This document shows, piece by piece, positions 3,123-11,023 of a DNA stretch of 59,243 nt. The notes beneath the pieces are model-generated. The model was given only the letters and a program-made list of their open reading frames with translations, did not search any database and had not been told where the DNA came from. The stretch is from contig JAJYWY010000012.1 of assembly GCA_021791245.1 (NCBI GenBank), positions 1 through 59,243 of the forward strand, in the 5' to 3' direction. The translations under genes and the position numbers were made by a program. How positions within the stretch are numbered: the stretch's first letter is position 1; each line of letters begins with the position of its first letter. The DNA is from Microcaldota archaeon. Its GTDB lineage: Archaea > Micrarchaeota > Micrarchaeia > Micrarchaeales > CABMGC01.

Positions 3123-3137
3123 GGAGAAGGCAAGAAA
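3123..3137. other. pre-23S processing stem (partner arm at 5971-5985)
   Basis: GGAGAAGGCAAGAAA here is the exact reverse complement of the 15 bases at 5971-5985. The arms flank the 23S gene, so the transcript can close into a long stem, as archaeal pre-23S RNAs do before cleavage by the splicing endonuclease at a bulge-helix-bulge. Confidence 0.75.
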
Positions 3138-3139
3138 AG

Positions 3140-5970
3140 TTTCAGGTATTAGTAATGGTGCGCTCGCAAGTCGCCGAAGCTCCCTGCTTACACGCCCATC
3201 CTATCAACGCCATGTACTATGGCGACCCTAGCGTCTCGTTTCGGATGCCGCTTCGCCCTTAGATGCTTTCAGGGCTTATCGGCTTGGCGCGTGGCTACCC
3301 AGCTATGCCAATGACAACTGGTAAACTAGAGGCGCCGATCTTCCGTTCCTCTCGTACTAAAAAGACCTTATCCTCCAACGCTAACACTCCCAGTAGATAT
3401 TACCGTACTGTCTCGCGACGTACTGAACTCAGCTCATGTAGGTCTTTGATGGACGAGCAGTCCAGCCCTTGGTGGCTCCTGCACCACCAGGATGACCTAA
3501 GCCCATATCGGTGTATCAAACGGCTGGGTCGATGTGAACTCTCACCAGCCACGAACCGGTTACCTCTAGAGTAACTTGTTTGACAGCTTGGACCCCCATT
3601 AAAAGAGGTACCAACGTTCGTTAAGCCCCACTTTCGTGTCTGCATCCCCCGCTTTTCAGGATACAGTCAGCCCCGCATTTGCCTTTGTGCTTAACAGCGG
3701 GTTTCCAACCCGCCTAAGCGGAGCGTTGGTCACTTTCGTTTCTTTATCGAAAGCAACCGCCCAGTCTAACTATCCACCTGCTACTGTCCCTTCTGGTAAG
3801 TTGCGTAGAAAGCGAAGAGTGGTGTTACAAGATCGCTCCGCCATGGCCGCAACCATGGCATCGACGCTCCCACTTACGCTCTGCAACGCTCGCCACACAA
3901 CAATAACAGGCTATAGTCAAGCTTCATAGAGACTTCATTTCCCACTGAGAGAACGCGGCATGTACACCGCGCAGTGAGTTCACCGGATCCAAGATTGGGA
4001 CAGTGGGACAATCGTTACGCCCTTCATGCAAGTCACCTATTAAGTGACGAGGTATTACGCTACCTAAAGAGAGTCAGAGTTACTCCCGCTCTTTGCTAGC
4101 GCTTAGTCCCGTTGAAACGGGGTTTCGCATACTAGTAGTGAGCAGGCGTCACCCACTGTACTGAGCGTTTCCGCTTTGCGGTGAGTTGTGTTTTTGATAA
4201 ACAGTCGTTGTCCCCGAGTCAATGATATCTGCATCTAGCCAGACGCAGACATGGCTTGTCGAAAACTTACGCCACTATTTTGCCGATTTCCCTAACCTTG
4301 GTTCTTCCGCCACACCTTGGCCTTTTCAGCCAGCAGCACTTGTACTAGTTCTAGGTACGATTCAATATGGTCGTTGCAGATTCCCTTTTCACGGGCCCAT
4401 GAATTCGGCCAATGTTCATTTAGCTGCTTCTCCTCATAACGAGACTCCGCAGCCATTTGCACTTCTTTTCGGCTTATCCACAGGCGTCAGAAATCTGCCT
4501 TGTGTTGCCACGCCTACATATTAAGCGCCTGAATATTAACAGGCTTCCCTTTTGCGCGGTAGTGATTGGCTCCGCGCTTAGGATCGACTAACTCCCTGCT
4601 GACGATCATCGCAAGGAAGACCTTGTGCTTCCGGTGTATATGATTCTCACATATATTTGCTATTACTAACACCAGGATTTTCACTAGTGCATTGTCCATT
4701 TGATCTTAAGACCAAATTTCTTGCAATGCACCACGCCCTCTTACCAGTCTTTAACTCTGGGGTCTCGGTACCTAGTTTAGCCCCGTCCATCTTCGGAAAA
4801 TTCAATCTTGATCGGTACGCTATTACGCGTTTTTTAAAGGATGGCTGCTTCTGAGCCTACCTCCCGACTGTCTTAGAGAGAATCTTCCTTCATGACACTT
4901 AACTAGGATTTGGGGACCTTAACCTCAGTCACCGCCTTTTCGGTCTCGCGACGCTAGCTTACCCAACGCCGCCGACTCCCGGAGTCTACACAGCATATGC
5001 ATTCGGAGTTTGAGAATCTAGTGATCCCTTTCGGAATCTTGCCAGATAATCGGTAGCTCTACCGCATATGCAAGCTCGTCCGGAGCTATCCTAAAGATAC
5101 TTCAGAGGGGACACGCTATTGCCACGTTCGAGAGGTATATCGCCGCTACCCGCAGCTCACCCAACAAGATATACTATGACAGGTTGCTGGCCTCCATCGG
5201 GCGTCAACCCGACTTCGCCATGGCCGCGCGTAGTTCACAGTGGCTTCGTGTCGTACTCAAGCGACTTAGGCATATTAATGCCCAGCGCCTCGTTTCCTGC
5301 GCGCTCTCGCTTTCACTATGCAGCATAAGCTGCTTGCCGCTCAAGTACACTCCCTGGCTCTTGCTTCGAGAAGAAGGATGCCACACTGTCATGCATGTCG
5401 CTCTGCCCTCTCGGGCATTCGCTTCCATGCACTCAACCTTTCATGCAGCATCTTCTCGTAACCATTTAGTTTCAGATCTTTTCAGCCCCACGCGTGTGGG
5501 TTCTTTTCAGCTTTCGCTCGCGCTACTTGTTCACTATCGGTCTCTGAGCAATATTTAGGGTTGGGGTTTAATGCCCCCGTCTTCGCACAACATAACCAGG
5601 TTGCGCTACTCTCCTGCAGCCGACTCATCTCGCATGGGTACGAGGCTGTAACTCTCTATGGCCCCCCTTTTCAGAAGGTTTCCCACGTCCGACGAGTCTG
5701 ATCTGCGCCACATCTCCTTGCCCCTTGCGGGACAGGATTCAGCATGCCCTCTGCTGCTTTCATTCGCATTACTTACAGCATCGCTTTCGCTTTCTTCTCC
5801 TGCGGGTACTAAGATATTTCAGTTCCCCGCGTGCGCTCACGCCACTATTCATGGCGTGCATTCGGCAATCCTTGGTTCAAGGGCTGACTTGCGCCTACCC
5901 AAGGCTTATCGCAGCTTGCCACGGCCTTCTTCGCTCTCAGAGCCTAGCCATCCACTAAATGGCTTAAAAA
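3140..5970 (-). rRNA. 23S ribosomal RNA
   Basis: The minus strand carries recognisable large-subunit rRNA from the 5' region (GTGGATGGCTAGGCTC near 5955) to the 3' domain (GGCGTTGATAGGATGGGCGTG near 3205). Conserved domain V and sarcin-ricin-region sequence lies between. About 2.83 kb is slightly short for archaea and leaves no room for a large intron. Ends are approximate and set just inside the processing stem. A TTTAAA-type TATA element near 6076-6083 may drive it. No 16S or 5S is adjacent, so the rRNA genes are unlinked. Open frames inside this stretch on either strand are spurious. Confidence 0.96.
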
Positions 5971-6108
5971 TTTCTTGCCTTCTCCTCAATCAATTGCATC
6001 ACGCAATATCACAGCTGGCATATGCTAAATTAGAAAAAACATTTGCCAGGCATCGGAATATATTTGCATCAGAAGGTTTAAAAGGTTTTTCGGTATTCCT
6101 GACCAGCA

Positions 6109-7959
6109 TCATGCGCGCTGCCCATTGTTCTCAAGGAAGTATTCGCACAGCATTGAAGTTGATATGAGCGCGTATTTCTTTTGCATTGCATCTGATTCGT
6201 CGAAGCCGAGGTTGTGCGCAGAGTACCTGAGCTGAGGTATCCTGTAATTATTCATGTCCTCGTCTGCAGATACCCTGAAGGCGAACTCCCTGAGCATCCG
6301 CACAGTCTTGTGCAATCTTGCGATCTTCTTGTTCTTTGCAAGCATTCCAGGCAATCTTATATTGTCTGACAGCTTCTTCTGCCTCATCAAGATTCTTTCG
6401 AACTCTACAAGCTGCGACAGCTCTTCGTTCGAGTCTATTGGAGTATGTATGAACTTTAAGTCGTTCTCAAGTTTCACGATATCTTGTATCACATGGTAAT
6501 AGTAATCGGTATGCGAGAAATCTATAAGCCACATGTTGAGATTGTCGTCGAGTATTATATTGCCAGCATTGAGGTCGCCATGTGAAAGGGCCTGCCTTAC
6601 ATACGACACTTTCCTTTTCAGAAGCTCGTTTATGTTCTTTTCGCTGTAGAAGAGCGTAGGGTTTGCGAAGTCTCCAACCCCTTTAAATGAGATCGTGTCC
6701 CCTCTCGGCTCATGTCCTAGTATCTTCATTATGTTATCGCGTATCTTGCTGCAGCGCTCTGGCGTGAATGTATTGGAAGACCAGAGCTGTTTCTTCTCAA
6801 GGGTCCAGTTGCTGTACAACGGGGTTAGTATCTCGTCGAACAGTATGCTAACGTTCTTCTCTAGCCTGCTAATGTCTTTCTTTGTGCCTTTTACAGACAT
6901 GAAGAATTCCTTGAACGTCCTGGCGTTGCTGTTCTTGTTCATCATGGCGAAGGAGTATCTTATCCCTGCCCCCTTCTCGGTCTCTACGGAGTTTACTATC
7001 TTTGGTACATGAGGCCCAAGTATGTACTGCACCTTCTCGAAGCCCACCCTCTCCTTGCCTATCTTCTCCATACTGTCAAGCTTCATTATTGTAGGTGCAA
7101 GCTGGAACCCATGCCTGTCAACGCTATTTACGAAGAGGACCTTGGATCCGCTGTATCCTCCTGAAAGCTCCTTTATTCTTATGGACTTGCAGTCCCTGAA
7201 CAAGTATTCTGCTATCCTCTTCTCCTCTTCAAAAAGTTTTACTCTCTCTATGTATCCTATTGATGGAACGTCAAATCCCCTGAGGCCCAGTGAAGCCCTT
7301 GTTCTCACATTTAACCAGTTCCCGAACTGCTTTATGCTGTTGAACACTTTGACCCCGTACATATTCGAAAGATCCTCAAGCCCCTGGAAATGCCTTCTTA
7401 TGTTGTTGCTTGCGGTTAACGCGGAACACACTGCTATGTTGTCCATGTTGTAGAAGCCCTGCAGCGCTATGGCCATCTCCTCCACCTTTATGTTCGTAAG
7501 CACGCCGATTATTCCTATTCTTACATCTGACTTGTCTGTGTTTCCTATTGCCTTGTCCAACGCATCCTTGAATATATCCTCGGAGGCGGCGAGTATCTTT
7601 GTAGAATTTACCGTATAGGTATTGCCCCTCTCCTTGAGTATCCCCTTGTTCTCCCATACGAATTCCGCGCCCCACGTATTCTCCATGCAGTGCGGACCGT
7701 ATATGGAAAGTTCATGCTTTTGAGAAGGATCTGCAAGACTATGCCAGTCCCTTACATGTATTATGCCCATGTCTTTCTCGCTTTCCATATAGCAGGATTC
7801 CAAGAACTTCATCAATGGTCCGTTTTTCCAATCCATGCCTAGAAGCCTGAGGGATTCGTAGTATCCTATATGCAGTGGATTTGGAAGTGCGTCATCCTTT
7901 TCGACCCTGCTTATCATGTCGTTTGAGAGACTTATTGTTACCAGTATCGATTTTGCCAT
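6109..7959 (-). CDS. fusion of a degenerate isochorismatase-like (cysteine hydrolase) domain with an APH/kinase-like domain
   Basis: A 616-residue soluble protein. Residues ~1-215 follow the isochorismatase/nicotinamidase fold: HVRDWHSLADPSQ at 68-80, then HCMENTWGAEF at 90-100, and IGVLTNIKVEEMA at 151-163. In active enzymes the last motif reads GVxTxxCV; here Lys158 replaces the nucleophilic Cys. The first catalytic Asp is also missing (Ser10 in ISLSND), so the domain is probably non-catalytic. Residues ~260-500 look like an aminoglycoside-phosphotransferase/kinase fold: glycine-rich LSGGYSGSKV (265-274), a Lys in PTIMKLDS (289-296), HGDLNAGN (460-467) and IDF (479-481). These kinase residues appear intact. 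The ligand and substrate are unknown. A TATATAAT box on the minus strand near 8003-8010 gives a short leader. Confidence 0.65.
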   Translation of the reverse strand: MAKSILVTISLSNDMISRVEKDDALPNPLHIGYYESLRLLGMDWKNGPLMKFLESCYMESEKDMGIIHVRDWHSLADPSQKHELSIYGPHCMENTWGAEFVWENKGILKERGNTYTVNSTKILAASEDIFKDALDKAIGNTDKSDVRIGIIGVLTNIKVEEMAIALQGFYNMDNIAVCSALTASNNIRRHFQGLEDLSNMYGVKVFNSIKQFGNWLNVRTRASLGLRGFDVPSIGYIERVKLFEEEKRIAEYLFRDCKSIRIKELSGGYSGSKVLFVNSVDRHGFQLAPTIMKLDSMEKIGKERVGFEKVQYILGPHVPKIVNSVETEKGAGIRYSFAMMNKNSNARTFKEFFMSVKGTKKDISRLEKNVSILFDEILTPLYSNWTLEKKQLWSSNTFTPERCSKIRDNIMKILGHEPRGDTISFKGVGDFANPTLFYSEKNINELLKRKVSYVRQALSHGDLNAGNIILDDNLNMWLIDFSHTDYYYHVIQDIVKLENDLKFIHTPIDSNEELSQLVEFERILMRQKKLSDNIRLPGMLAKNKKIARLHKTVRMLREFAFRVSADEDMNNYRIPQLRYSAHNLGFDESDAMQKKYALISTSMLCEYFLENNGQRA

Positions 7960-8100
7960 CTAATTCATGCTTGTTGTTTGTAAGGTAAGGAAAACCACGC
8001 TAAAATTATATATGTTGCTTTTCAAAACACTGATTTCACAGAATATTTTCGTATACAAATCGAGAGCAATCTTTATAAAGGCGTAAAATGGGATTATACT

Positions 8101-9810: not shown

Positions 9811-9882
9811 GCTCTGGTAGTGTAGTGGTTAGCATGTAACCCTGTCACGGTTGAGACCCGGGTTCGAATCCCGGCCAGGGCG
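9811..9882 (+). tRNA. tRNA-Asp (GTC)
   Basis: Intronless cloverleaf: acceptor GCTCTGG/CCAGGGC, anticodon loop CTGTCAC with GTC at 34-36, T arm CCGGG-TTCGAAT-CCCGG, discriminator G as expected for Asp. The 3' half overlaps the end of the methylase gene on the other strand. Confidence 0.95.
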
Positions 9883-11023
9883 GATTTTTTTCCATGGCTG
9901 ACTCTGCAATTCCGTGGGAGATTCCCTTCAAAAATTCCAGTGATGCCTCCGGAACTTTTTTTGAAATGGAAAAATGCAGAATATCCTCCATAGTTCTATT
10001 TCCTCTCCTGTTTTTTGTTTCTCTTTCTTGCCTTAATAGCAGATTTAATCCGCAAGCGCCTACAGCCAATGCGTAAATCATTGCTGATGTCCTTATCTTT
10101 GTCCTGCCTGCTTCGGATTCCCTGCCAATGACTATTATCATCCTGCCTTTTTCTTTCAATACCCTCTTCATCTCAATTAAGGACATGCACATATCCTCTG
10201 CATACTTTTGTATGCCGTATTGAACCTGAGTAATCCCAAAAGTGCCCCCTATCTCACGATCTTTTGCCCACGTGATATTGTATCCGGCTATCCACATGGC
10301 ATGCTTATAGTTTCGGTAATAATCGAATGATCCTATATATGGCGGGGAGGTGAGAACTAGGTCAACTGAGCTGTCCTTCATGCTCATATCTCTTGCATCT
10401 TCTCTTGCCACAATGCACTTCTTACTGCAATACGGCAGAGACATCACAAGGTTTCTGTGGGTTTCAAATGCTTCGTATAAGCCGTTTATTCCGTTTCTGT
10501 TCTTTGATATTGAAAACCTCATAAGGGCATTCATAATTATACTGTGCACCAGGTCATCGTCCGCCGCGTTATCCAGCAGTCCCTTGAGAATTGCGGTGTC
10601 TTTGCCTTCAATATTTCCGTGTTTGCCTGGGAAAGCGTCTTCGATAATGCCCTTTGCACTGTCTAAGCAAGCTTTTCTCTTGTTTTTGCCTACATTGCAG
10701 AACATAACTGTTTCAGCAAGCTTTACTGCTGCTGGATTTATATCTGATCCATGGCATTCCATTCCCAACTTTGCAGCCTCAAACAGCGTTGTGCCGCTTC
10801 CACAGAATGGATCGAGCACAACTGAGTCCTTATTTGCATATTTCTTTAGCAGCTTTTCTGCAAGCCCTGGAGGGAATTGTCCGCTCCACTGAAATATGCT
10901 CTTCGCTCTATCTCCCTGAATGCCCAATTCCTTTTTAAAGTCAGGGTCGTAATCTATAGGAAAATCGTTGAACTGCATCATCAGCTGCAAAATATTATCC
11001 TGTGCTTTTTTGGTATTTGCCAT
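9845..11023 (-). CDS. DNA methyltransferase, amino-methylating (N6-adenine/N4-cytosine) type
   Basis: 392 residues. The SAM-binding motif DPFCGSGTT is at ~71-79 and catalytic TSPPY near 229-233, with ~150 residues between. Motif I precedes motif IV. This is the layout of amino-group DNA methylases. No restriction endonuclease gene is adjacent, so it looks like an orphan methylase or one acting with a distant partner. The last ~13 codons (PPWPGFEPGSQP, then stop) are encoded by the antisense strand of tRNA-Asp, so the original stop may have been lost or the gene grew into the tRNA. RNA methylation cannot be excluded. Confidence 0.8.
   Translation of the reverse strand: MANTKKAQDNILQLMMQFNDFPIDYDPDFKKELGIQGDRAKSIFQWSGQFPPGLAEKLLKKYANKDSVVLDPFCGSGTTLFEAAKLGMECHGSDINPAAVKLAETVMFCNVGKNKRKACLDSAKGIIEDAFPGKHGNIEGKDTAILKGLLDNAADDDLVHSIIMNALMRFSISKNRNGINGLYEAFETHRNLVMSLPYCSKKCIVAREDARDMSMKDSSVDLVLTSPPYIGSFDYYRNYKHAMWIAGYNITWAKDREIGGTFGITQVQYGIQKYAEDMCMSLIEMKRVLKEKGRMIIVIGRESEAGRTKIRTSAMIYALAVGACGLNLLLRQERETKNRRGNRTMEDILHFSISKKVPEASLEFLKGISHGIAESAMEKNPPWPGFEPGSQP

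Follow-up and report, generated by a model that had tools for sequence, protein, structure and literature searches.

A nicotinamidase-like pseudo-enzyme domain fused to a TCAD9 kinase in an archaeon and in Planctomycetota: a putative small-molecule-controlled kinase

What does a hydrolase-like domain that has lost its hydrolase residues do in front of a kinase? The question is raised by a gene on the archaeal DNA stretch analysed here (59,243 nucleotides, hereafter the window), for which an original prediction, made from the sequence alone, had proposed that an inactive isochorismatase-like domain senses a nicotinamide- or isochorismate-like ligand and controls an attached kinase, possibly as a signalling or conflict-type module. 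Hydrolases that turned into sensors are a known idea.

The gene and its genomic setting

The open reading frame is real and lies on the minus strand, and Ser10, Lys158, HGDLNAGN and IDF are located where the original prediction had placed them. The gene, its two halves and a possible promoter element are:

6109–7959, minus strand: whole gene, 616 aa, with the ATG start at 7959 and the stop at 6109–6111
7306–7959, minus strand: N-terminal pseudo-nicotinamidase (isochorismatase-like) domain, residues 1–218, supported by profile comparison with PDB structures and by hhalign against PncA
6112–7305, minus strand: linker and TCAD9/APH-like kinase domain, residues 219–616 (Pfam TCAD9, PF19974)
8001–8014, minus strand: candidate archaeal TATA box, CATATATAATTTTA, roughly 45 nt before the start codon, inferred from the sequence by eye

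The archaeal genome that carries the gene is small (838,607 bases in 42 contigs, 92.6% complete). On the same strand, 130 bases downstream, lies an archaeal 23S rRNA gene (3130–5979), genes for the proteasome, the transcription terminator FttA and RNA polymerase are found on the same 59-kb stretch, and the G+C content of the kinase-fusion gene (45.7%) matches the 45.2% of the whole window. These features place the gene on the archaeal chromosome and make an assembly chimera unlikely. There is no obvious operon around it, with a divergent upstream neighbour and the rRNA gene downstream. A 28-nt inverted repeat (3123–3150 and 5958–5985, 82% complementary) encloses the 23S rRNA gene, leaves the kinase-fusion gene outside and is probably a pre-rRNA processing stem. 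Elsewhere in the window, a DNA methylase ORF on the minus strand (9811–11023) ends with the residues GFEPGSQP, which overlap a plus-strand tRNA gene (9811–9882).

The N-terminal domain and its replaced catalytic triad

Taken alone, the archaeal N-terminal half remains under the Pfam Isochorismatase (PF00857) cut-off of 27 (13.9 bits, E = 0.058). Fused relatives from Planctomycetota score up to 41.2 bits (E = 2.4e-10) with the same model, and a profile of 14 N-domains matched solved structures of the family (PDB 3hb7, E = 8.1e-12; 3s2s, 6.6e-8; 1ilw, 1.1e-7), with Lys158 falling in the column of the nucleophilic Cys of isochorismatase and nicotinamidase structures. Comparison of the N-domains with two true PncA sequences by hhalign (E = 1.1e-5, probability 81.6) placed Lys158 and Cys in the identical register. 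Judged by these profiles, the predicted homology to the isochorismatase-like superfamily is real despite the sub-threshold Pfam score, the homologous domain being that of PncA and isochorismatase-like cysteine hydrolases (PF00857; PDB 3hb7, 1ilw/1im5, 3s2s). An AlphaFold model of the N-domain from single-sequence input reached a pLDDT of 48, and the Foldseek search with it, which the poor model makes uninformative, returned no match at E ≤ 0.001.

In PhPncA, Asp10, Lys94 and Cys133 are catalytic and Asp52, His54 and His71 are metal ligands (PMC3025910). The corresponding positions in an alignment of 14 N-domain sequences, consisting of the archaeal protein and 13 relatives, are:

7930–7932, minus strand: Ser10, replaces the catalytic Asp (Cys in 13/13 relatives); profile and alignment
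7603–7605, minus strand: Ser119, replaces the catalytic Lys (Ser in 12/14, Ala aligned in L103 and L104); alignment
7486–7488, minus strand: Lys158, replaces the nucleophilic Cys, invariant in 14/14; alignment, structure profile and hhalign
7741–7749, minus strand: Asp71-x-His73, a pair of residues predicted to bind the metal, unchanged in 14/14 and corresponding to PhPncA Asp52/His54 (PMC3025910)
7690–7692, minus strand: His90, invariant, the third residue predicted to bind the metal, corresponding to PhPncA His71 (PMC3025910)

The loss of the hydrolase triad had been proposed from Ser10 and Lys158, to which Ser119 adds a third change. Ser at position 10 occurs only in the archaeal protein, with Cys in the rest of the 14 sequences, and L103 and L104 are the two most distant stand-alone copies of the N-domain. 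Same-architecture relatives that keep Asp-Lys-Cys were looked for in the alignment; instead, the triad is replaced throughout and the Cys-to-Lys change is conserved in every N-domain. As the replacements occur in all relatives, triad loss is a family trait and not a mutation, and an active enzyme with a recent point mutation is ruled out. The sub-threshold score of the archaeal N-half and its divergence on a long branch might raise the suspicion of an accidental resemblance, or of an active hydrolase fused to a kinase whose copy here is decaying by mutation; identical replacements in 13/13 relatives and the match of the family profile to real nicotinamidase structures refute this and reduce its probability to practically nil.

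Unlike PncA, the pseudo-nicotinamidase is fused to a kinase and has Cys/Ser-Ser-Lys in place of the Asp-Lys-Cys triad, and amide hydrolysis would not be expected. The Thr and Val of the PncA-type GV.T..-V segment are kept. In nicotinamidases, the pyridine nitrogen of the substrate binds the active-site metal (PMC6271260). To go by the aligned residues, the amide-cutting apparatus of the N-domain is gone and the pyridine-holding apparatus, namely the putative metal ligands, is kept.

The altered site could also be read as a rebuilt one, in which Cys/Ser10, Ser119, Lys158 and the metal catalyse another chemistry (transfer, hydrolysis or lyase) and the kinase of the resulting bifunctional enzyme acts on the product or substrate. 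This would fit a conservation of the replacement residues that nearly equals that of a catalytic site, the swap of Cys and Ser at position 10, which nucleophiles can undergo, and the location of stand-alone copies among metabolic genes. We nevertheless consider a rebuilt site unlikely, since the usual nucleophile elbow is occupied by Lys, neither Cys nor Ser, Ser119 is not fully conserved (L103 and L104 have Ala in its column), and the searches made found no enzyme of the nicotinamidase fold with a Cys/Ser-Ser-Lys triad. Pseudo-enzymes frequently act as scaffolds, and a purely structural N-domain would make dimers or position a protein substrate for the kinase, with a pocket that binds nothing regulatory. 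A scaffold, however, need not keep an Asp-His-His metal site and Lys158 invariant from bacteria to an archaeon, which makes a merely structural role quite unlikely in our view.

The kinase half and the distribution of the fusion

The C-terminal half of the archaeal protein matches TCAD9 (PF19974) with 141.8 bits against a gathering cut-off of 40 (E = 4.5e-41). Its kinase motifs, which had been described as intact, are:

7147–7164, minus strand: Gly-rich loop SGGYSG, residues 266–271; alignment
7081–7083, minus strand: Lys293, ATP-anchoring Lys, invariant, partner of Glu303; alignment
7051–7053, minus strand: Glu303, invariant, pairs with Lys293; alignment
6559–6582, minus strand: catalytic loop HGDLNAGN (H460, D462, N467); alignment
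6520–6522, minus strand: Asp480, metal-binding Asp of IDF; alignment

K293, E303, H460-x-D462...N467 and D480 are invariant across 10 aligned fused proteins, and the same six residues are common to distant plasmid TCAD9 proteins, at 17–23% identity. The ATP Lys, alpha-C Glu, HxDxxxxN loop and metal Asp expected of active APH/protein-kinase-like kinases are all present in the archaeal protein, and nothing in its residues looks inactive. HGDLNxxN, IDF, the Gly-rich loop and the Lys and Glu pair are shared with APH, choline kinase and RIO kinases (PF01636, PF01633, PF01163). The region around HGDLNAGN gives weak matches to generic models of these kinases (RIO1, APH, choline kinase), and the protein stays under the curated cut-offs (RIO1, 20.0 vs 22; APH, 17.6 vs 23.2); unlike APH/RIO-type kinases, it bears an N-domain that we propose to be regulatory. 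A structure model of the kinase domain, made from 4 sequences only, reached a pLDDT of 37.

The plasmid relatives have receiver domains or other N-termini where the archaeal protein, which keeps all key TCAD9 residues, has the pseudo-nicotinamidase. A response-regulator receiver domain is recognised by Pfam in three of the five plasmid TCAD9 proteins (L033:2524–3957, L034:2470–3900 and L036:2473–3891; Rhizobium, Phaeobacter and Vibrio), and this kinase type is thus found repeatedly behind a regulatory N-domain. The genes in L034 and L036 are preceded by genes annotated as AAA-family ATPase and ATP-binding protein, and the plasmid receiver-TCAD9 loci are possible signalling or conflict operons.

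Single-query searches with the archaeal protein (genome contigs, viral contigs, and tblastn against plasmids and phages) gave no match because the protein is too divergent. A scan with a three-sequence alignment retrieved remote TCAD9/APH kinases only, and one Planctomycetota genome among them led to full-length relatives. Within the archaeal phylum, Planctomycetota and a sample of Pseudomonadota, the two-domain arrangement was found in 10/392 Planctomycetota genomes, and the family profile matched 1/301 genomes of the archaeal phylum, that of the archaeal protein itself, and 0/249 Pseudomonadota genomes, a result of little weight without a positive control in that group. TCAD9 above the cut-off was present in 11/294 Planctomycetota genomes and 1/245 genomes of the archaeal phylum. 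Nine intact planctomycete relatives have 30–35% identity to the archaeal protein in a full-length alignment, while the gene of the remaining genome (G381) is split by an assembly frameshift; the C-domains of the planctomycete fused proteins score 132–203 bits for TCAD9. To judge from these alignments, the gene looks like a pseudo-nicotinamidase-kinase fusion conserved across two domains of life and not like a broken gene. The scattered distribution and the occurrence in bacteria and an archaeon suggest horizontal transfer, the direction of which is not readable because the archaeal protein forms a long branch among its relatives. A pseudo-enzyme of the isochorismatase/nicotinamidase fold fused to a kinase was not described in the open-licence literature or family libraries searched, although domain databases may already show isochorismatase combined with TCAD9.

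At least two planctomycete proteins carry a further domain. A CDKN3/DSP-type phosphatase lies C-terminal to the kinase in L057, with an intact HCxxGxGRS motif, and in the end-truncated L056, and the same domain was recognised by eye in G381. DSP-type phosphatase and kinase also share one chain in the DSP-PTPase fused to NAD kinase (PF22741; CDKN3-like phosphatases, PF05706), but in L056 and L057 TCAD9 takes the place of NAD kinase, and the phosphatase is absent from the archaeal protein.

Conflict systems, NAD salvage and a proposed mechanism

The TCAD9 name comes from domains linked to vWA-MoxR-VMAP ternary conflict systems (PMC10910872), in which active APH-like kinases are rare effectors (PMC7159879). 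Together with the patchy distribution of the fused protein, this would suit an effector role in anti-phage defence or kin conflict. The main basis for proposing a conflict-type module is the Pfam family name, however, and the proposal found no backing in gene neighbourhoods: among the four neighbours of the archaeal gene, a domain scan recognised a DNA methylase but neither vWA nor MoxR nor VMAP, the planctomycete fused genes have no common neighbourhood (compared by ORFs, mostly without domain scan), and the PADLOC defence models have no family for the archaeal protein or for the planctomycete proteins L060 and L057. We regard a conflict effector as highly unlikely.

The N-domain occurs alone in four further Planctomycetota genomes, with the same Cys (former Asp) and Lys (former Cys) replacements. 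The stand-alone copies of G307 and G421 are clustered with nadE, nrtR, pncB, a genuine pncA, and HSP70-like and ThiF/E1-like genes (identified by Pfam in G307; NAD synthase of G421 read by eye). NrtR is a Nudix regulator of NAD genes, nadE encodes NAD synthase and pncB nicotinate phosphoribosyltransferase. These planctomycete loci (L101:1377–12965 and L102:1–12051) combine NAD-salvage, ubiquitin-like and chaperone genes in an unusual mix, and a second E1-like case near the family is seen in L074:7736–11603, where genes for ThiF/E1, JAB and FHA-domain proteins are oriented divergently from the G381 fusion gene. In G532 (L104:3668–4048, minus strand), a protein-kinase-like C-terminal fragment, cut by the contig end, lies about 60 bases upstream of the stand-alone N-domain on the same strand, so that the domain is again coupled to a kinase.

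Of the two ligand types in the original prediction, the nicotinamide-like one thus gained support from the stand-alone copies in NAD-salvage clusters and the isochorismate-like one gained none. We have modest confidence that the ligand is a pyridine or NAD-salvage compound rather than isochorismate, the basis being two related stand-alone loci and not the fused genes. Neither NAD synthase nor a canonical isochorismatase-family enzyme was detected in the 92.6% complete archaeal genome. Without a detectable NAD synthase, an NAD-salvage ligand would come from elsewhere; if it is an NAD precursor, the archaeal protein would, speculatively, report on imported compounds.

We give about even odds (roughly 50%) to a small-molecule-controlled kinase, in which a pseudo-nicotinamidase sensor controls the TCAD9 domain. 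Under this model, for which we infer ligand binding and identity, kinase activity and domain coupling, the N-domain would derive from a cysteine hydrolase of the nicotinamidase type. Hydrolysis would have been abandoned as the triad changed from Asp-Lys-Cys to Cys(Ser)-Ser-Lys, with the metal ligands retained. The ligand is probably a pyridine-like NAD-salvage compound, held through the metal. As a first candidate nicotinate is reasonable, since a carboxylate, not an amide, would suit a site in which the nucleophile has given way to an invariant Lys and the Asp is lost; Lys158 would then meet the carboxylate or a similar group. Ligand binding would activate or silence the C-terminal TCAD9 kinase, and the phosphatase in the same chain of some Planctomycetota could reverse the kinase reaction. 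Counting against the sensor-kinase reading, the former Asp position is not uniform (Ser in the archaeon, Cys elsewhere). More tentatively, these proteins may constitute a new class of soluble receptor kinases in bacteria and an archaeon, in which a nicotinamidase pocket retooled from amide cleavage to ligand binding senses a metabolite of NAD salvage and gates an APH-like kinase, accompanied in some members by an opposing phosphatase in the same chain.

The invariant Lys and the metal site make the sensor idea directly testable. If true, it would mean that a nicotinamidase pocket is reusable for sensing, would give the poorly understood TCAD9 kinases a plausible regulated role, and would link an NAD-salvage metabolite directly to phosphorylation in prokaryotes.
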